Below, piece by piece: positions 3,912 through 14,649 of a stretch of DNA of 64,000 bases. How positions within the stretch are numbered: the stretch's first letter is position 1; each line of letters begins with the position of its first letter. The notes beneath the pieces are model-generated. The model was not told where the DNA came from and did no database searches. It saw only the letters and a list, made by a program, of their open reading frames with translations. Made by a program: the position numbers and the translations under genes. The DNA is from Anaerolineales bacterium (lineage in GTDB: Bacteria > Chloroflexota > Anaerolineae > Anaerolineales > Villigracilaceae), in NCBI GenBank assembly GCA_016789025.1, contig JAEURC010000050.1, forward strand, positions 1-64,000. Reading direction: 5' to 3'.

Positions 3912-3939
3912 TTGACGCTCGAATAGAATTGGATATAAT
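3912..3939 (+). promoter_or_regulatory. Sigma-70-type promoter of second transporter operon
   Basis: TTGACG (3912-3917) and TATAAT (3934-3939) are spaced by 16 bases. Transcription would start near 3946, leaving a leader of about 155 bases before the receptor gene at 4102. The early leader can fold with CGGACA/TGTCCG and CTAG/CTAG arms (about 3957-3993). The leader matches no riboswitch class I recognise. Confidence 0.75.
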
Positions 3940-4101
3940 TCCGCTACCTATGAGCCGGACACAGTGTCTAGTCCTATATCTAGCGCTGTCCGATGATGAA
4001 TCCAATGATTCAGAAAGGAGTGTTGCGGGGAACCAACCAACCATCTCATTCGAACGTTCACATCAAAAAATTCAAATCAAAATTTGTAGGAGAGAAATCC
4101 A

Positions 4102-5976
4102 ATGTCCAAGAATCGAACTATGATCGTTCTCGGGTTGCTCGTAATCGCAAGCATGGTTCTTTCGGCTTGCGGTACGCCCGCTCCCGCCGAGCCGGCTGAA
4201 CCCATCGTGGTGACTCAGGAAGTCGTCGTGACCGAGGTTGTGGAAGTGGAGCGCGAAGCGTTCACCACGCCGCACCCGATCCTCAGCGACCTCAAGGTCC
4301 GCCAGGCGCTTTCGTACTGCACTAACAAGTCTGACCTGCTCGCCTCGGTTTACCCTCTTACCGACGAAACCACTCGCGCGAACCTCGTCATGCACACCTT
4401 CATCCCGCGCGATCACTGGGCGTATGCCGGCGATGACAATATCACCATCTATGCGTTCGATCCCGCTGCGGGCCAAGCGTTGCTCGATGAAGCCGGCTGG
4501 ACCCTCGCCGAAGGCGCATCCTTCCGCACCAATGCCAATGGCGATGAACTGGCTTTGCAGTTCACCACCACCAGCGCCGCCTTCCGCCAGACCTGGGCTG
4601 CGATCTGGGAACAGCAAATGGCCGACTGTGGCGTTCGCGTCGTCCGCTTGCATGCTCCCGCCTCCTGGTGGTTCGGCGATACCACGGGTATTGCCCGCCG
4701 CGACTATGAACTCGGCGCGTTTGCCTGGGTTGGCCAGGCCGATCCCGGCGGACAGACCCTGTATGCTTGCGATCAGATTCCCGCCCCCAATAACGGCTGG
4801 GAAGGTCAAAATGCCATGGGCTGGTGTAACGAAGCCGCCAGCACGAACATTAAATTGGCGAACAACACCCTTGTGAAAGATGAACGTATTGCTGCATATA
4901 CTATCGTCCAGCAGGAATTCACTAAGGATGTCCCGAGCATTCCGCTCTTCAACCGCACCGACACCTATGCATACAATGCCGCGTTGACCGGCCTCGAACC
5001 GAAACCGGGCGAACCGTATTACACCTACAACGTTTCGGATTGGGCGCTCGAAGGCTCCGACACCATCATCATGGGCTTCACGCAGGAACCCGCCTCGCTC
5101 TTCACCCTCGTGGAAGACGCGTTCGTATCGCAATTGGCGTATACGCTCATCCGCCCGAACCAATCCACCGGCTTGAACTATGACTTCCAGGCTCAGTTGG
5201 TTAAGCAATTGCCCACCATCGAAAATGGTGGTACCACTAACAATGATGTGGAAGTGTCCGAAGGCACCAAAGTTGTGGATGTTAATGGCGATGTGGTCGA
5301 CCTCGCGGCTGGCGTCAAAGTCAAGAACGCGGCTGGCGAAGAAGTCGAATTCACTGGCGGCACCGTGATGATGAAACAGTTGGTCTCCCGCTTCGATCTG
5401 ATTGACGGACTCACCTGGGAAGACGGCACGCCCGTTTCTGCCGCCGACCTCGAACTGGGCCAAAAGATCTCCTGCGATCCCGAATCCGGCGCGACCTCCT
5501 TCATCGTCTGTGATAAGACAGCCAGCGCCACATTCGATGGCGTTGGATACACCCAGACCTGGGTTCCCGGCGTTCAAGACCCGCTATACTTCCTCCCTGT
5601 GTGGCCCATCTACCCCGCTCATCAGTTGGGTGATGTTCCCGCCAAAGACTGGGCGACCAACCCGCTTGTCGCTGAAACCCCGCTTTCCTACGGTCCGTAC
5701 AAGATCGTGGGCTGGGAAAAGGGCGTCAAGATGGAATTCACAGCCAACGAATTCTGGCCCGGTGGCGTTGCCACCCCGAATATCGTGATCCAGATCATCA
5801 CGCCCGAATCGCAGGAAACCCTCCTGCTCGGCGGTGAGATCGACATCCTCGATTCAACCTCCCTCGTTGGTCTGACCGAAACGCTTGTCGCCGCTGAAGG
5901 CGAAGGCAAGATCAAAACCATTGTGGAACCAAGCGCCACCTGGGAACACATCGATATCTCCCTGTTCGTTCGCTAA
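4102..5976 (+). CDS. Lipoprotein solute receptor with circularly permuted SBP_bac_5 fold
   Basis: This is a lipoprotein receptor of a peptide-type ABC importer. A signal peptide ends in the lipobox LSAC (Cys23), followed by a Pro/Val-rich linker to about residue 52. The order of the mature halves is swapped relative to the family. The segment that normally lies in the middle, 'HPILSDLKVRQALSYC', comes first at about residue 55 and runs through the usual C-terminal part ('DVPSIPLFNR') to about residue 315. Then the usual N-terminal start appears ('TIIMGFTQEPASLF'), followed by 'LIDGLTWEDGTPVSAADL' and 'PLSYGPYKIVGWEKG'. The protein ends where lobe II would normally begin. GGAGAG precedes ATG 4102. 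A permease and ATPase set follows. The receptor family is clear, and the permutation is read from motif order. Confidence 0.92.
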   Translation: MSKNRTMIVLGLLVIASMVLSACGTPAPAEPAEPIVVTQEVVVTEVVEVEREAFTTPHPILSDLKVRQALSYCTNKSDLLASVYPLTDETTRANLVMHTFIPRDHWAYAGDDNITIYAFDPAAGQALLDEAGWTLAEGASFRTNANGDELALQFTTTSAAFRQTWAAIWEQQMADCGVRVVRLHAPASWWFGDTTGIARRDYELGAFAWVGQADPGGQTLYACDQIPAPNNGWEGQNAMGWCNEAASTNIKLANNTLVKDERIAAYTIVQQEFTKDVPSIPLFNRTDTYAYNAALTGLEPKPGEPYYTYNVSDWALEGSDTIIMGFTQEPASLFTLVEDAFVSQLAYTLIRPNQSTGLNYDFQAQLVKQLPTIENGGTTNNDVEVSEGTKVVDVNGDVVDLAAGVKVKNAAGEEVEFTGGTVMMKQLVSRFDLIDGLTWEDGTPVSAADLELGQKISCDPESGATSFIVCDKTASATFDGVGYTQTWVPGVQDPLYFLPVWPIYPAHQLGDVPAKDWATNPLVAETPLSYGPYKIVGWEKGVKMEFTANEFWPGGVATPNIVIQIITPESQETLLLGGEIDILDSTSLVGLTETLVAAEGEGKIKTIVEPSATWEHIDISLFVR

Positions 5977-6002
5977 TTTGAACGAATACGCGTGCTAAAA
6001 TG

Positions 6003-6030
6003 AAGGTGTGCCTCGCAAGAGGCACACCTT
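6003..6030 (+). promoter_or_regulatory. Stable hairpin with GCAA loop plus TATAAT, receptor-permease gap
   Basis: Twelve-base perfect arms (AAGGTGTGCCTC and complement) close a GCAA tetraloop. A TATAAT lies at 6033-6038, three bases after the stem. No T-run follows, so I read it as an mRNA-stabilising or attenuating hairpin rather than a full terminator. The TATAAT could be an internal promoter with the palindrome over its -35 area. Confidence 0.65.
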
Positions 6031-6054
6031 CCTATAATGTCAAGAGGTTTCACT

Positions 6055-7257
6055 ATGACAGCCTATTTCATTCGACGTATCTTTCAAATGATTTTAGTGG
6101 TATTGATTTCAGCGGTCGCTTCGTATGCGCTGTTGAACCTTGCCCCCGGCGGACCTCTCCAGGGCTTGCGTCAGATTCAACAAGGCGGGCGTTTTCAAAT
6201 TACCGAAGATGATATCGCGCGCATCCGCGCTTATTTTGAATTGGATTTATTTTTGCCTTATCGATTTACCCGTTGGTTGATCGGCGAACCGCGCGGACCC
6301 CTCGTGATCGGCGGACAGGAATATTTTTCCGATCTAAAAGTGGGCTGTAGAAAACCGATCGAATCTGAAAAACTGAACGAAGATACCGGGGAATTTGAAT
6401 CGATCATTACCGGTTGCAAAGAAGACGTGTTTCTGAAAGATCTGGTGGGGCGCCGCACCAGCCGGGGCGTTCTGTTCGGCGATTTTGGATTATCGTGGAA
6501 GGTTCTGCGCGATCGCCCGGTGACCGAACTTCTGGCGAGCCGTATCCCAAAAACGATCCAATTGATCGGTTTGCAATCCCTACTTTCGATCCTCATTGGC
6601 ATCCCGCTTGGGGTTTATTCCGCCATACGTCAATACTCTCGTTTTGATTACATCTTTACATCGCTCGCATTCATGGGCTCTGCCATGCCGACTTTCTTCT
6701 TCGGCATTTTGTTGATCCTCGCATTTTCCATCATCCCGAAAGATGCCGGCTGGATGTATCTGCCAGCCGGGCTATCCGAATCGATCCGCGATTATTCCAT
6801 TCCCATCATCGGGGCTGTGGAGGCGGGGTCGCTCAAAGACCGCTTTCTGCATCTCGTGCTCCCGCTCAGCGTGTTGACCATGGTAAACATCGCGGGTTGG
6901 AGCCGCTTCGTCCGCGCCAGCATGCTCGAGGTAATGCGTCAGGATTACGTGCGCACCGCGCGCGCCAAGGGATTGTCTGAACGCGTGGTGATCATGAGGC
7001 ACGCCTTCCGCAACGCGCTCATCCCATTCATCACCATTGTGGTCTTCACCCTGCCTGGTCTATTCGGCGGCGCCATCATTACAGAAAGTATCTTCGCCTG
7101 GCCCGGCATGGGGTTGTTGTACATCAAAGCCCTGGGAGACTTTGATTACCCGGTGGCGATGTCTATCTTCTTCATTCTTGCCGTGCTGACCGTCATTGCC
7201 ACCCTGCTCAGGGATGTGCTGTACACGCTCGTCGATCCAAGAATCCGATTGTCGTAA
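6055..7257 (+). CDS. Peptide-type ABC transporter permease, DppB family (long form)
   Basis: This channel subunit pairs with the DppC-type protein just downstream and is served by the permuted receptor. It has about 400 residues, longer than the usual 310-340, because a soluble loop between helices 1 and 2 is expanded (about residues 40-165, including 'LKVGCRKPIESEKL'). It opens 'MTAYFIRRIFQMILVVL', has 'NLAPGGPLQ' near residue 35, and carries the ATPase loop 'RTARAKGLSERVVIMRHAFR' near residue 300. ATG 6055 is preferred over ATG 6037 because AAGAGG lies at proper distance and the family starts here. Confidence 0.93.
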   Translation: MTAYFIRRIFQMILVVLISAVASYALLNLAPGGPLQGLRQIQQGGRFQITEDDIARIRAYFELDLFLPYRFTRWLIGEPRGPLVIGGQEYFSDLKVGCRKPIESEKLNEDTGEFESIITGCKEDVFLKDLVGRRTSRGVLFGDFGLSWKVLRDRPVTELLASRIPKTIQLIGLQSLLSILIGIPLGVYSAIRQYSRFDYIFTSLAFMGSAMPTFFFGILLILAFSIIPKDAGWMYLPAGLSESIRDYSIPIIGAVEAGSLKDRFLHLVLPLSVLTMVNIAGWSRFVRASMLEVMRQDYVRTARAKGLSERVVIMRHAFRNALIPFITIVVFTLPGLFGGAIITESIFAWPGMGLLYIKALGDFDYPVAMSIFFILAVLTVIATLLRDVLYTLVDPRIRLS

Positions 7258-7272: not shown

Positions 7273-8268
7273 ATGTCTGCCGCACAGGTCGCATCCCTTT
7301 CACCCGAAGCCGTTACCATCGAGGAACGTTCGCCGTTCCAGATCGTCATGCGCCGTTTCCAGCGTCACCGCCTGGCGATGATCTCGCTCGTCATCATGCT
7401 GGTGATGTTCATGATCACCATCCTCGCGCCGTATATTGCCCCCTTTGAAATCCAGGAACTCTCGGTCAATAAATATTTTGTTCCCTGGGGAACCGTAGAC
7501 GCGGAAACGGGTCGCGTGCACCACATGGGCACCGATCATATCGGGCGCGATTACTTCTCCCGCCTGATCTATGCCGGGCGCATCTCGCTAACGGTCGCCA
7601 TCCTGTCGGTTCTCATCTCCGAGACGATCGGCATCGTCATCGGAGCGATCTCTGGCTTCTTCGGCGGGTGGATCGACACCATCCTCATGCGGTTTGTCGA
7701 ATTCATGCTGACGATTCCACAACTGCCATTGCTTTTGATCATCTCCTCCATGCTCTTGCGCAACGAAGAACTGATCGCCATTCCGGACCCGGTCTTGAAG
7801 TTTATGGGCGATATCCTTCTGCTCAGCCCGCGCGATTCGCGCAATGCCGTGCTGATCGTGTTGGTCCTGGCGGGTTTCGGCTGGTTGAGCGCGGCGCAGT
7901 TGATGCGCGGAACTGTGCTTTCCCTGCGCGAACAAACTTTCGTTGAAGCCTCGCGTTCGCTGGGGGCGTCAAACTTCCGCATCATCCTGCGCGATATGAT
8001 CCCCAACGCCATGGCGCCCATCATCGTGGATGCATCCCTCGGCTTGGCGGGCTACATTGTAGGCGAAGCCGCTCTTGCCTTTTTAGGTTTCGGGATTCAA
8101 GATCCCGTTCCCACGTGGGGGAATATGCTTGCCGCTTCACAACAGTTTATGCTGGACCGCCCGTGGTTGCCACTCGTGCCGGGTTTGCCCATCTTCCTCT
8201 GCTCCCTTGCCTTCAACTACATCGGCGACGGCTTGCGCGATGCGCTCGACCCGCGCCTTAAGTTGTAA
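7273..8268 (+). CDS. Peptide-type ABC transporter permease, DppC family
   Basis: This is the partner permease of the DppB-type gene 15 bases upstream. The 331-residue protein has the first helix near residues 35-60, the motif 'MGTDHIGRDYFSRLIYAGR' near residue 85, the ATPase loop 'EASRSLGASNFRIILRDMIP' near residue 225, and the ending 'DGLRDALDPRLKL'. It lies in the middle of a five-gene operon (receptor, B, C, D, F), the standard order for dipeptide/oligopeptide importers. Confidence 0.95.
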   Translation: MSAAQVASLSPEAVTIEERSPFQIVMRRFQRHRLAMISLVIMLVMFMITILAPYIAPFEIQELSVNKYFVPWGTVDAETGRVHHMGTDHIGRDYFSRLIYAGRISLTVAILSVLISETIGIVIGAISGFFGGWIDTILMRFVEFMLTIPQLPLLLIISSMLLRNEELIAIPDPVLKFMGDILLLSPRDSRNAVLIVLVLAGFGWLSAAQLMRGTVLSLREQTFVEASRSLGASNFRIILRDMIPNAMAPIIVDASLGLAGYIVGEAALAFLGFGIQDPVPTWGNMLAASQQFMLDRPWLPLVPGLPIFLCSLAFNYIGDGLRDALDPRLKL

Positions 8269-8289: not shown

Positions 8290-9327
8290 GTGACTGATAC
8301 AAAAGAAGCACAGAAACCCCTGCTTGAGGTCCGAAACCTTCAAACCCATTTCTTCACCGAAGACGGGGTGGTGAGAGCGGTGGACGGCGTCGACATCACG
8401 GTGTACCCCGGTGAAGTGCTGGGCATCGTGGGCGAATCGGGATGCGGCAAGAGCGTCACATCGCTTTCCATCATGAGGTTGATCGGACAGCCCGGAAAAG
8501 TGGTAGGCGGCGAGATCCTATTCGATGGCAAGGATTTGCTAAAACTTCCCGAATCTGAAATGATGACGGTGCGCGGCAACCGCATTTCGATGATCTTCCA
8601 ACAACCCCAAACTTCGCTGAACCCGGTCTTCCGCGTGGGCGAGCAGATCGGCGAGGTGCTGAACGTTCACCAGGATTTCGGCAAGGAAGCCGCGCAAAAA
8701 CGCACCGTTGAATTGCTCAAACTGGTGGGCATTCCCGACGCCGAACGCCGCGCCGAAGCCTTCCCGCACGAACTCTCCGGCGGTATGGCACAGCGCGTAA
8801 TGATCGCCATGGCGCTTGCCTGTCTCCCCGATTTGTTGATCGCCGATGAACCGACGACCGCGCTCGACGTGACGATTCAAGCCCAAATTTTGGATCTGAT
8901 GCGGAACATGCGCGAACAATTCGGTTCGGCGGTTATCCTCATCACGCACGATCTCGGCGTTATTGCCGAAATGGCAGATCGCGTCGCGGTCATGTACGCC
9001 GGCGAGATCGTCGAACAGACGAGTGTGCTCAGCCTTTTCAAAGAACCTTTGCATCCCTACACTAAAGGGTTGATCGGCTCGACGCCTGTGCTTGGGCGGG
9101 TGCGTGAAAAACTGGATGTGATCCCCGGCGCGGTTCCTAATCTCGTCAACCTGCCGAAGGGATGTCGTTTTGCGCCGCGTTGCGCCGCGCGCGTTCAACA
9201 CAACCTCGCCATTTGTACCGAACAAGACCCCGACCTGATTCAATACAACGAGAACCACATCATACGCTGTTGGCTGTATCAGGATTCCAGCCAGCACACC
9301 GCGCCCCTCAAAAATCCATCTACCTAG
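8290..9327 (+). CDS. Peptide-type ABC transporter ATPase, DppD family
   Basis: This cytoplasmic ATPase energises the importer together with the DppF-type protein downstream. The 345-residue protein has Walker A 'GESGCGKS' near residue 50, the signature 'LSGGMAQRV' near 163, Walker B '[12 protein letters not shown]' near 181 and the switch His in 'LITHDLGV'. It ends with the oligopeptide-ATPase tail containing '[11 protein letters not shown]'. It starts at GTG 8290, preceded by CGGAGA at good spacing, since no ATG lies near the conserved N-terminus. A close paralogue is at 12613. Confidence 0.95.
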
Positions 9328-9336
9328 AGTGAAATC

Positions 9337-10335
9337 ATGCCGATGAATCCATCCAATGAAAAATACGACCTCGTTGTCGTCAAAGACCTGGTGAAATATT
9401 TCCCGGTACGCGCTGGCGTGCTTCAACGCGTGAAGGCGCACGTGCAGGCTGTGGACAAGGTCAGCTTCTCTGTGAAGGAAGGCGAAACGCTGGGCATGGT
9501 GGGCGAGTCCGGTTGCGGAAAGACCACCGTCGGGCGCGCCATCCTGCGCTTGATCGAGCCGACGTCCGGGTCGGTTTTCATCAACGGGGAAGATATCGTG
9601 CAGATGCGTTCGCAGTCGCTCAAACAAGCGCGTCGCAACATGCAAATGATCTTTCAGGACCCGTACGCTTCGCTCAACCCGCGCCTGCCCATCGGCGAAT
9701 CGGTGATGGAAGGTTTGCACATTCACGGCATCGGTCACCCCAAAGAACGCTGGGATATTGCCATCAACATGTTGAAAAAAGTGGGGCTGGAAGATTATCA
9801 CGCCCGCCGCTACCCGCACGAATTCTCCGGCGGTCAACGCCAGCGCATCGGAATTGCGCGCGCGCTTGCCCTGCAACCCAAGTTCATTGTCTGCGACGAG
9901 CCGGTCTCCGCGTTGGATGTGTCCATCCAATCGCAGGTGTTGAACATCCTCAAAGATTTGCAGGCAGAGTTCGGGCTTACCTATTTATTTATCGCGCACA
10001 ACATGAGCGTGGTCGAACACATCTCAGACCGCGTAGCGGTGATGTACCTCGGCAAAATGGTGGAACTTGCCGAACGCGAAGAACTCTTTCGCAACCCGCT
10101 TCACCCGTACACCAAAGCCCTCATGTCGGCGATCCCGATCCCCGATCCGACCGTGAAGCGTGAGCGCATTATCCTCAAAGGCGATGTGCCCAGCCCGTTG
10201 AATCCGCCCAAAGGGTGCCGCTTCCATCCGCGTTGCCCGGTTGCGATCGATATCTGTTCGCAACACGAGCCTGAGTTCAAGGAACTCGCGCCGGGGCATT
10301 TCGTCGCCTGTTGGGTTGCGGAAAAAAACGGATAA
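9337..10335 (+). CDS. Peptide-type ABC transporter ATPase, DppF family
   Basis: This is the second ATPase of the importer and the last gene of this operon. The 332-residue protein has '[12 protein letters not shown]' near the N-terminus, Walker A 'GESGCGKT' near 58, signature '[10 protein letters not shown]' near 165, Walker B '[12 protein letters not shown]' near 185 and 'LFIAHNMSV'. The tail has the conserved 'GCRFHPRCP' found in this ATPase family. The start may be ATG 9337 or 9343. The paralogue at 13648 is strongly similar along its length. Confidence 0.95.
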
Positions 10336-10342
10336 GCGAATA

Positions 10343-10381
10343 AAACCCGTGGCGCCATGGCGCCACGGGTTTCGTTATAAT
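10343..10381 (+). promoter_or_regulatory. Perfect palindrome plus TATAAT before third receptor gene
   Basis: A 30-base perfect palindrome (10343-10372, centred on GGCGCCATGGCGCC) ends the DppF-type gene region. TATAAT (10376-10381) follows four bases later. The stem core CCCGTGGCGC recurs after the tRNA at 15930. It may be a terminator-like hairpin for the upstream operon, an operator for the promoter, or both. Confidence 0.6.
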
Positions 10382-10397
10382 GGGGAGAATACACCGA

Positions 10398-12338
10398 ATG
10401 GAATTTCACATGAAAAAACTCATTTCAAGTTTTTTAGTTCTGCTCATCATCGCTTCGTGCGCCCCGCAACAGGAAACAGAAATTCCCACCTTGCCTGATG
10501 CGCCAACGGAAACACCCGCGCCTCTTCCCACCGCCACGCCTGCCACGCGCGCCCTCAACATTTGCCTCGGGGAAGAGCCAACCACGCTCTATCCACTTGG
10601 GAGTTTAAATGCCGCGGCGCGCAGTGTGCTTTCCGCCATTTATGATGGTCCCATGGATGTGATCGAATATGGGTATGAACCGGTCCTCCTCGAAAAAATC
10701 CCGAACCTTGAAGACGGCGACGCGCAAATCGAAACGGTGACTGTGCAACCTGGCGACCAGATCGTGGACGCGAGCGGCAACGTAGTGGGTCTAGTTAAAG
10801 GCACGCAACTTTTCCCAAGCAAATGCCGAAGCGATGAATGCAAAGTGACTTATGACGGCGTCAGTAATATCAACATGGATCAAATGGTGGTCACCTTCAC
10901 CATGCTCGAAGGCTTGCAATGGTCCGATGGCGCGCCGCTCACCGCCGATGATTCGGTATTCTCATTCGAACTTTCCGCCAACGACGCCACGCCTGGCTCC
11001 AAGTTCCTGATCGATCGCACACAAACGTACGAAGCCGCCTCCGATGGCGTGACAGTTCAATGGTGGGGAATGCCCGGCTTTATCGATCCCGATTATTACA
11101 CCAATTTCTTCATGCCACTGCCGCGACATGTTTGGGGAGAGCAATCTCCCGCAGACTTGGCGCGGCTCGAACTTTCGGCGCGCTTCCCGTTGGGTTGGGG
11201 TCCGTATATCGTGAAGGAATGGAACGCCGGTGAAAATATCCTGCTCACGAAAAACCTGAATTACTTCCGCGCTTCGAGCGGATTGCCCCATTTCGATGAA
11301 GTGAACTTTATCATCATGCTCGATTCGAACGCCGCCTTCAGCGCCCTGTTGGAGGGAAAGTGCGACGTTCTCGACCCAACCGTTCATCTCGACGGGCAGG
11401 TGGGCTTGCTTCAGCAATTGGAATCGCAGGGGCAGGCGAAGCTCATCACCGCGCAAACGATGACGATGGAATGGCTGGGCATTGGCGTTTCACCGTCTGC
11501 TTATGACGACGGCGTGAAATCGCAAACCGACCGCCCCGATCTTTTTGGCGATGCGCGCATGAGGCAGGCGCTGGCATACTGTCTCGACCGTCAAAAAGTG
11601 GTGGATACGGTTTTGTTCGGGCTCTCGCAAGTTCCCGATAGTTACCTGCCATCCGATCACCCGCTTCACAACGGCAATCTCCAAACCTATACCTTCAATC
11701 CCCAAGCCGGGAAAGACCTGCTCGATGCCGTCGGCTGGCTGGATTCAGACAACGACCCAACCACGCCGCGGCTGGCGTTTGGGGTCACGGGCGTGCCCGC
11801 TAGAACGCCGCTGGTTCTCGATTACTACACCACCACTGCCACCCAGCGTCACCAAGTGACAGAGATTTTCGCGCAATCGCTTGCCGCATGCGGCATCGGG
11901 CTAAATGCCGCGTTCTACGAAGCGCCGAATTTTTACGCGCAAGGACCGATCGGTCCCTTATTCAGCCGTCAATTCCAACTTGCCGAATATGCCATCGGCG
12001 TGAGCAGCCTTGAACCGCAATGCGGTTGGTTCACCTCGGCGCAAATCCCCACCGAAAAAAACCACTGGCTTGGCACGAACATCAGCGGTTATAAAAACCC
12101 GGAGTTTGACAAGGCTTGCGCGCAAGCGCTACGATCCCTGCCCGGCGAACCGGAATACGCTTCCCATCAACAAGCGCAGGCGACCTTTGCTTCCGAACTC
12201 CCGTCGATTCCGCTTTACCTGCGGCTTCGAGTTGCCGCCGCTCGCGCAGATATGTGCGGCTTTAACCTCGACCCATCTTCCAACTTCCCGCTCGCCGAAA
12301 TCGAACTCTTCGATTATGGGACGGGTTGTAAACCATAG
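10398..12338 (+). CDS. Lipoprotein solute receptor, SBP_bac_5 family (canonical order)
   Basis: This lipoprotein receptor is of the peptide-type ABC family. Its signal peptide is 'MKKLISSFLVLLIIASC' with lipobox IASC, followed by a Pro/Thr-rich linker. The halves are in normal order. 'LNICLGEEPTTLYPL' starts the fold near residue 50, 'LQWSDGAPLTADDS' follows, and the lobe-II motif 'DARMRQALAYCLDRQKVV' comes near residue 380. It is the best internal comparison for the permuted receptor at 4102. Starts at 10398 and 10410 are both possible. GGGGAGA lies at good distance from 10398. It stands alone after the promoter-like region, with a second ATPase pair following under its own promoter. Confidence 0.92.
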   Translation: MEFHMKKLISSFLVLLIIASCAPQQETEIPTLPDAPTETPAPLPTATPATRALNICLGEEPTTLYPLGSLNAAARSVLSAIYDGPMDVIEYGYEPVLLEKIPNLEDGDAQIETVTVQPGDQIVDASGNVVGLVKGTQLFPSKCRSDECKVTYDGVSNINMDQMVVTFTMLEGLQWSDGAPLTADDSVFSFELSANDATPGSKFLIDRTQTYEAASDGVTVQWWGMPGFIDPDYYTNFFMPLPRHVWGEQSPADLARLELSARFPLGWGPYIVKEWNAGENILLTKNLNYFRASSGLPHFDEVNFIIMLDSNAAFSALLEGKCDVLDPTVHLDGQVGLLQQLESQGQAKLITAQTMTMEWLGIGVSPSAYDDGVKSQTDRPDLFGDARMRQALAYCLDRQKVVDTVLFGLSQVPDSYLPSDHPLHNGNLQTYTFNPQAGKDLLDAVGWLDSDNDPTTPRLAFGVTGVPARTPLVLDYYTTTATQRHQVTEIFAQSLAACGIGLNAAFYEAPNFYAQGPIGPLFSRQFQLAEYAIGVSSLEPQCGWFTSAQIPTEKNHWLGTNISGYKNPEFDKACAQALRSLPGEPEYASHQQAQATFASELPSIPLYLRLRVAAARADMCGFNLDPSSNFPLAEIELFDYGTGCKP

Positions 12339-12580: not shown

Positions 12581-12612
12581 GCGCCCATCCCTGCTCGTTG
12601 GAGTTTCTCCTC

Positions 12613-13626
12613 ATGACCAGTAGCCAGCCTCTGCTTGCTGTGAAAGACCTCAAGACATACTTCTATACCGAAGACGGCATTGTCCGCGCGGTGGATGGCG
12701 TGAATTTTGAAGTGTATCCCGGCGAAGTGCTTGGGCTGGTGGGAGAGTCGGGATGCGGCAAGAGCGTCACATCATTATCCATTATGGGGTTGGTCTCCAA
12801 ACCCGGCAGAGTGAATGGGGGAGAGATACTCCTTGAAGGCAACAACCTGCTCAAACTACCGGAGGATGAAATGGTGAAGATACGCGGCAATCGCGTATCG
12901 ATGATCTTCCAACAGCCTCAATCGGCGTTAAACCCCGTGTTCAAAGTTGGCGATCAGCTTTCTGAAGTGCTGAACGTGCATCAGGATATGGGCAAAGAGG
13001 CAGGCTGGAACCGCGCGGTTGCATTGCTCAAAATGGTCGGCGTGCCAGACCCTGAGCGGCGCGCGCACGCGTATCCGCATGAACTTTCCGGCGGTATGGC
13101 GCAGCGCGTGATGATCGCCATGGCGCTGGCATGCGTGCCTGAACTCCTTATTGCGGACGAACCCACCACCGCGCTGGACGTGACCATTCAAGCGCAGATC
13201 CTTGACCTGATGCGCGACCTGCGCCGCGAAATGGGGACAGCCGTCATCCTCATCACGCATGATCTTGGCGTGGTTGCCGAAATGGCAGACCGCGTGGCGG
13301 TGATGTACGCCGGCGAAATTGTGGAGCAGACCGACGTCAATTCGCTGTTCGACGAGCCGTTACATCCATACACGCAGGGCTTGATCGGCTCGATCCCAAT
13401 TCTGGGCGAACTCAAGGAAAAACTGGATGTGATACCCGGCTCCGTTCCTAACCTCATCAACCTGCCGCCCGGGTGCCGTTTTGCGCCGCGCTGTGAGGCG
13501 CGCGTCAAATATTCGCTGGCAATCTGCACCGAGACCAAACCCGAACTTGACGATGTGAGACCCAGTCATAAAGTGCGTTGCTGGCTGTATCAAAACGGGG
13601 CGGGGCATTCCGCGCCGTTGAAGTAA
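12613..13626 (+). CDS. Peptide-type ABC transporter ATPase, DppD family (second copy)
   Basis: This ATPase subunit, about 337 residues, is a close paralogue of the protein at 8290. It has Walker A 'GESGCGKS', signature 'LSGGMAQRV', Walker B '[12 protein letters not shown]' and tail '[11 protein letters not shown]'. ATG 12613 is preceded by TTGGAG. It has its own promoter and is followed 21 bases later by a DppF-type partner. With no permeases in this operon, it may serve the receptor and permeases of the first operon, which lacks ATPases. That link is inference. Confidence 0.94.
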
Positions 13627-13647
13627 CCCCTTTCTGGAGAAAATTTC

Positions 13648-14649
13648 ATGTCAAACAACGCCAGCCAAAAAGGGGAAACCCTCGTTGAGGTTAACAATCT
13701 CGTAAAATATTTTCCGGTGCGGGCAGGTTTATTACAGCGCGTAGTCAACCACGTGAAAGCGGTGGACGATGTCAGCTTCTTTGTGCGCAAAGGCGAGACG
13801 CTCGGCATGGTGGGCGAATCCGGTTGCGGCAAAACCACCGTCGGCAGAACGATGCTCCGCTTGGTCGAGCCAACCTCTGGCTCGGTAAAGTTCGGCGGCC
13901 AAGATGTGTTCGCGCTCAAACAAAATGAGTTGAAACCTATCCGTCGCAATATGCAGATCATCTTTCAAGACCCGTATGCCTCGCTCGACCCGCGCGTGCC
14001 CATCGGCGAATCGGTGATGGAAGGATTGCACATCCATCGCATCGGCTCTCCTAAAGAGCGCGTGGATATCATGCTCGAAACGCTTAAGAAAGTGGGGCTG
14101 GAGGATTATCACGCCCGGCGTTATCCGCATGAGTTCTCCGGCGGTCAGCGTCAACGCATTGGCATTGCGCGCGCGCTGGCATTGCGCCCACAGTTCATCA
14201 TCTGCGATGAGCCGGTCTCCGCGCTGGATGTGTCGATCCAATCGCAGGTGTTGAATATTTTGAAAGACCTGCAAAAGGAATTTGGTCTCACCTATCTGTT
14301 CATTGCGCACAATCTCTCGGTGGTCGAGCACGTGTCGGACCGCGTGGCGGTGATGTACCTCGGCAAAATGGTCGAATTGGCAACGCGCGACGATCTGTTC
14401 CGCGAAGCCCTGCATCCCTATACACAAGCGTTGATGTCTGCCATCCCCGTGCCGAACCCGCGTTTGAAACGCGAGCGCACCATCCTCAAGGGCGATGTGC
14501 CCAGCCCGCTCAACCCGCCGAAGGGATGCCGCTTCCACCCGCGTTGTCCGGTGGCAATCGAAAGATGCTCGCAGGATGAGCCGCAGTTCAAAGAACTCCG
14601 ACCCGATCATTGGGTGGCGTGCTGGGTCGCCGAACAGAATTTGAAATAA
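13648..14649 (+). CDS. Peptide-type ABC transporter ATPase, DppF family (second copy)
   Basis: This 333-residue ATPase is paralogous to the one at 9337 and shares '[12 protein letters not shown]', Walker A 'GESGCGKT', '[10 protein letters not shown]', 'DEPVSALD' and the tail 'GCRFHPRCP'. It forms a pair with the DppD-type gene upstream (21-base gap, TGGAGAA ribosome site). The two ATPase pairs look like an operon-level duplication. A response-regulator gene begins 12 bases after its stop and may be co-transcribed. Confidence 0.94.

Follow-up and report, generated by a model that had tools for sequence, protein, structure and literature searches.

Evidence for a naturally circularly permuted cluster C solute receptor in Chloroflexota

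The closest described precedent is TpMglB-2 (Tp0684), a naturally permuted, membrane-tethered sugar receptor of cluster B that belongs to a conserved family (PMC4990184). It was proposed to represent a Type Ic / Cluster Bc receptor, and tethering was suggested to favor permutation (PMC4990184). Its cut lies within the N lobe and adds a fourth crossing between the lobes (PMC4990184). Natural permutation of solute-binding proteins (SBPs) is thus already known. For cluster C receptors, we found no report of it in the open-licence literature, where TpMglB-2, from cluster B, was the only case that we found. SBP classifications take hinge crossings and chain order as fixed.

Here, we analyze a 64,000-nucleotide stretch of Anaerolineales DNA (the window), which lies in contig 76 of a 3.4-Mb draft genome in 103 contigs (G000). 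It encodes a permuted SBP_bac_5 lipoprotein of 624 amino acids, which we call cpSBP (positions 4102 to 5976, forward strand, ATG start), recognized with Pfam, PDB, and custom profiles. We consider it very probable that cpSBP is a true natural circular permutant of a cluster C receptor, which most likely adopts the normal bilobed form, binds a solute, and passes it to the importer encoded downstream. Like AppA (1xoc), NikZ (4oet), DppA (1dpp/1dpe), and Thermus OppA (2d5w), it belongs to PF00496, has the halves of a bilobed receptor, and lies in an Opp/Dpp-type operon. Unlike canonical cluster C receptors, its halves are swapped, its termini are predicted to lie at the first lobe crossing, and its anchor would be on lobe II. 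It also differs from TpMglB-2 in cluster (C), in cut site (at a lobe crossing), and in crossing number (one probably opened). The Type Ic / Cluster Bc class therefore does not describe this PF00496 member, cut near DppA residues 263 to 272. With one crossing probably open and the anchor on the other lobe, this conserved family is a direct natural experiment on the connections that a Venus-flytrap receptor requires.

Chain order and predicted structure

The gene follows a candidate sigma-70-like promoter (TTGACG-16-TATAAT, 3912 to 3939, forward strand), called by consensus match only, at 11 of 12 positions. The sequence also contains a ribosome-binding site, AGGAGAG (4088 to 4094, forward strand), 7 nucleotides 5' of the ATG. 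All parts of the protein are encoded on the forward strand. A lipoprotein signal peptide (4102 to 4170), kept in the alignment of homologues, ends in the lipobox LSA-Cys23, and residues 24 to 56 (4171 to 4269) form a linker predicted to be disordered (pLDDT below 50 for residues 1 to 55). The canonical second half, running from lobe II to the canonical C-terminus, comes first (residues 57 to 316; 4270 to 5049), as delimited with VIA-align. The canonical first half, running from the N-terminus to the first lobe crossing, comes last (residues 318 to 624; 5053 to 5973), as delimited by an AlphaFold model of the half and its structural match. Alignments place a compact seam between them (5041 to 5061), in which the canonical last strand is followed by about four residues and then by the canonical first strand. 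The initial annotation had put the motifs of the two halves at about residues 55 and 315, and these positions were correct.

The swapped order claimed in that annotation is borne out by several sequence comparisons. In the Pfam search, cpSBP scored 111.7 bits against PF00496 (cut-off 32.4) in two stretches, with residues 53 to 221 corresponding to profile positions 205 to 358. A six-frame search likewise placed profile positions 205 to 358 at 4258 to 4764 and then positions 17 to 178 at 5380 to 5862. Sequence searches of the PDB aligned NikZ (4oet) 62 to 214 with cpSBP 428 to 582 and NikZ 246 to 493 with cpSBP 54 to 315, and Thermus OppA (2d5w) was similarly swapped. The window also holds two receptors in canonical order, which the initial annotation had proposed as internal controls. 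One lies 5' of cpSBP (2 to 1630; recognized with Pfam), its gene cut by the window edge and starting at base 2, and the other, SBP2, lies at 10380 to 12338 on the forward strand. Both are collinear with the SBP_bac_5 profile.

The same order extends to the homologues. We built half-profiles for the canonical first half (A) and second half (B), and found the order B-A in every homologue (L001-L017, L033, L034, and L051-L094) and A-B in every canonical relative (L095-L130). Against a profile made from 103 canonical proteins, all 57 non-identical B-A homologues gave two swapped domains in native order (median best score, 234 bits). After in silico rotation, each gave a single full-length domain (57/57; median, 445 bits), so the swapped order is not due to chance. 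The family's chain also ends at a set point, exactly six residues past the WEHxD strand in 55 of the 57. The canonical chain order, usual for SBP_bac_5 proteins though not part of the family definition, is absent from cpSBP. Rotation restores one collinear match and the seam joins the former C- and N-termini, as in a natural permutation. A collinear alignment of cpSBP to SBP_bac_5 members is ruled out by Pfam, by the PDB, and by the 57-homologue profile test. Such receptors are a caution to annotators, because collinear profiles split or under-score them.

Structure prediction gave the class C fold in two complementary pieces, in line with the initial annotation. A whole-protein AlphaFold2 model, with 19 permuted homologues as input, reached a pLDDT of 82.8 and a pTM of 0.78, and the second half of cpSBP modelled alone reached 91.4 and 0.87. 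We compared the two halves with crystal structures separately, and the matched ranges were complementary, with Z scores of 19 to 24. In the predicted model, residues 57 to ~316-317 matched AppA (1xoc) 274 to 520 (Z 24.0) and DppA (1dpe) 272 to 507 (Z 21.7), in each case as far as the end of the chain (VIA-align). The half model of residues 318 to 624 matched AppA (1xoc) 21 to 318 (Z 21.7) and DppA (1dpp) 1 to 263 (Z 19.3). Both halves of the predicted models thus have the cluster C fold. Because one set of matches ends at DppA 263 and the other begins at 272, the cut falls at about DppA 263 to 272, in agreement with the initial annotation, which had the protein end just at the point where lobe II normally starts. 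We take this region to be the first of the two lobe crossings in DppA.

On these models, cpSBP most likely folds into a normal bilobed receptor. The chain would start from a lipid anchor at Cys23 and run through the linker of about 33 residues into lobe II, the canonical C-terminal strand, and the seam of about four residues. It would then continue through the canonical N-terminus, domain II, and the remainder of lobe I, stopping at the first lobe crossing. Such a path would leave open one of the two covalent connections between the lobes and would place the lipid tether on lobe II rather than lobe I. Residues 604 to 621 form a strand in the full model. When this half is modelled by itself, pLDDT falls below 50 over the final 11 residues, consistent with a strand that may need the other half.

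Origin of the permutation

Trees of the separate halves indicate a single origin of the permutation. In both, the permuted proteins occupy one side of a branch with support of 99 to 100. Their nearest canonical relative in both trees is a receptor of a Chloroflexia metagenome-assembled genome, L095 (5740 to 7677 of its locus), a sister placement that comes from one long-branch sequence and quick trees. Like cpSBP, L095 carries the pair Cys458/Cys470; it differs in having the canonical order, a shorter insert, and no recognized transporter gene beside it. SBP2, by comparison, is a related receptor of the same cluster, in canonical order.

A different history would make cpSBP a chimera, with its halves taken from two paralogous receptors such as those encoded by neighbouring tandem genes. 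Canonical SBP2 genes often lie directly upstream of cpSBP, and the half scores differ, with SBP2 nearer in the first half of the protein and L095-like proteins nearer in the second. The first trees also placed L095 in conflict between the halves, after which further sequences (L131-L160) were added. With these included, both halves favored L095: the B-half tree gave it a support of 88, and an A-half tree that unites the cpSBP family with L095 scored better than the free tree. Approximately unbiased (AU) tests rejected SBP2 as the B-half sister (p = 0.008) and did not reject it for the A half (p = 0.37). The shared characters do not all agree on the sister. Among the groups compared, the A-half pair Cys458/Cys470 is common to cpSBP and L095 only, whereas the characters shared with SBP2 fall in both halves (Cys73/Cys176 in B and a hairpin insert in A). 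After the added sequences and the AU tests, the chimera is unsupported, and we regard it as rather unlikely.

From these sequence comparisons, we conclude that the order probably arose by one permutation in one canonical Chloroflexota receptor close to L095, through an intermediate that we did not see. The initial annotation had called for a search for homologues with the same order; such homologues were found, and their origin maps to one event in the half-trees. The initial annotation suggested a tandem duplication whose outer halves were later lost. This route is a plausible hypothesis: canonical and permuted genes are often in tandem, but no A-B-A-B frame was found among the seam matches from 400 Chloroflexota genomes, where the longest open frame across the full seam was 822 amino acids.

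Operon context, distribution, and probable role

Linked ABC permease and ATPase genes are present at the cpSBP locus. On the forward strand, cpSBP is followed by permease 1 (BPD_transp_1; 6037 to 7257) and permease 2 (OppC_N and BPD_transp_1; 7273 to 8268), both recognized with Pfam. Next come an OppD/DppD-like ATPase (8290 to 9327) and an OppF/DppF-like ATPase (9337 to 10335), each recognized by Walker A and signature motifs and by its conserved place in the operon. Among homologous loci, the permuted gene usually heads the operon, followed by permease, permease, ATPase, and ATPase. The protein would capture its solute and hand it to this Opp/Dpp-type importer encoded just downstream. Most permuted sequences have Gln or Glu at the site aligned by eye with the Asp of DppA and OppA that we take to bind the peptide amine (DppA Asp408 / OppA Asp419), so this position gives no clear support to a peptide ligand for cpSBP. 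A second OppD/OppF-like ATPase pair lies 3' of SBP2 (12598 to 14649), which brings the cluster in the window to three receptors and two pairs each of permeases and ATPases.

Between cpSBP and permease 1 is a 13-bp stem-loop with no T tail (6002 to 6031, forward strand; z = −5.67 against shuffles). Strong stem-loops directly follow the cpSBP stop codon in 17 of 17 loci folded (the window and 16 others), with sequences unlike one another. Stems that protect the receptor message are known for other receptor genes. Because the T tail is absent, we read this stem as one that may protect the cpSBP message. A strong stem after the stop codon fits a receptor made in excess over the permease.

The protein could also be a real permutant that has lost its transport role and now works as a sensor or scavenger, with SBP2 as the transport receptor. 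A canonical receptor is present in several cpSBP clusters; SBP2 lies up- or downstream of cpSBP in many loci and, sharing the cluster in many genomes, could be the main receptor. Moreover, no transporter gene was recognized near five permuted copies (L077, L079, L082, L033, and L034), for which contig ends are partly responsible. Against this, permease genes directly follow cpSBP in most loci, and the flanks of roughly 6 kb around the Chloroflexia loci L065-L072 contain no recognized canonical receptor. We judge a sensor or scavenger to be distinctly unlikely and favor a transport receptor.

When 400 Chloroflexota genomes were sampled and searched with the seam alignment, 42 contained the full-length seam (E < 1e-30; counted from the listing), and canonical proteins matched just its first half (E = 1e-13 to 1e-9). 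All named homologues come from Chloroflexota, and the closest of them mostly from Anaerolineae. In a scan of 84,980 species with two short peptide patterns, the permuted proteins among the matches listed were all in Chloroflexota records except for those of two bins, one carrying the label Singulisphaera (L069) and the other Gracilibacteria (L092). The proteins in these bins resemble Chloroflexota ones, and the labels may be wrong. Given short patterns and listed matches, divergent permuted copies may also occur outside Chloroflexota.

Against close homologues, cpSBP has dN/dS values of 0.064 to 0.173, indicating purifying selection over the whole gene. This selection, the usual place at the head of a permease/ATPase operon, and the seam in 42 of 400 genomes suggest that cpSBP is probably a working receptor. 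The initial annotation had also argued for function, which gains sequence-based support from the dN/dS range (0.06 to 0.17), the conserved operon, the 11/12 promoter match, and the conserved stem-loop. That assembly or gene calling misjoined the halves of neighbouring genes, as a draft of 103 contigs might allow, has a negligible chance of being correct and is ruled out by homologues in many genomes: the same order recurs in tens of genomes obtained independently, among them single-contig assemblies (G011 and G025) and the cultured isolates Bellilinea caldifistulae (L062) and Chloroploca asiatica (L066), with purifying selection across the entire gene.

Further permuted and unusual receptors

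Two further permuted families, cut differently and missed by the initial annotation, occur in the lineage. The source genome itself encodes a type 2 permuted SBP_bac_5 lipoprotein of 589 amino acids (L195:1258-3027, forward strand; G000 contig 60, 8094 to 9860), with a permease gene next after it. Haem-binding HbpA 131 to 505 matched its residues 85 to 458 and HbpA 17 to 125 matched residues 478 to 580, while DppA 126 to 500 matched residues 87 to 459. These matches place the cut near DppA 125. Type 2 relatives were found in 46 of 61 genomes, and the order is kept in nearly all of the loci L203-L242.

A survey of 15 genomes gave a type 3 receptor of 853 amino acids (L243:695-3256, reverse strand; G025 contig 1). 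In this protein, SBP_bac_5 profile positions 146 to 355 precede positions 25 to 152, the cut lies near DppA 200, and the C-terminal tail is Ig-like. Residues 401 to 587 of 7fi3 matched its residues 130 to 305, with a weak match of 7fi3 99 to 289 to residues 518 to 716. Type 3 relatives were found in 30 of 61 genomes. Against the type 1 canonical profile, types 2 and 3 are swapped in native order, yet rotation gains few bits, so their permutation is read mainly from Pfam and PDB order.

The cut points and closest relatives of the three types differ, which marks them as separate events, so that permutation is recurrent in this lineage. It is possible, and we propose it tentatively, that SBP_bac_5 permutation in Chloroflexota is recurrent and selected, with at least three cut points (near DppA 125, 200, and 265) fixed in three subfamilies, perhaps because a moved tether or an open hinge crossing alters a tethered receptor at the envelope. 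If confirmed, three cut points that arose independently within a single phylum would serve as replicates and could guide the engineering of permuted binding proteins.

Other unusual architectures were also observed. On contig 73 of the source genome, a 2144-residue frame (L031:2491-8922, reverse strand) contains the second half of SBP_bac_5 only (residues 1512 to 1751), positioned after a carboxypeptidase-regulatory-like domain, and the first half is absent. A 957-residue lipoprotein on contig 3 of G050 (L233:2159-5032, reverse strand) fuses SBP_bac_1 with a type 2 permuted SBP_bac_5. On contig 104 of G032, a 958-residue fusion (L034:9604-12477, forward strand) joins a receptor of the phosphonate type (PF12974) to a canonical SBP_bac_5 receptor, and its gene adjoins that of a divergent permuted receptor.
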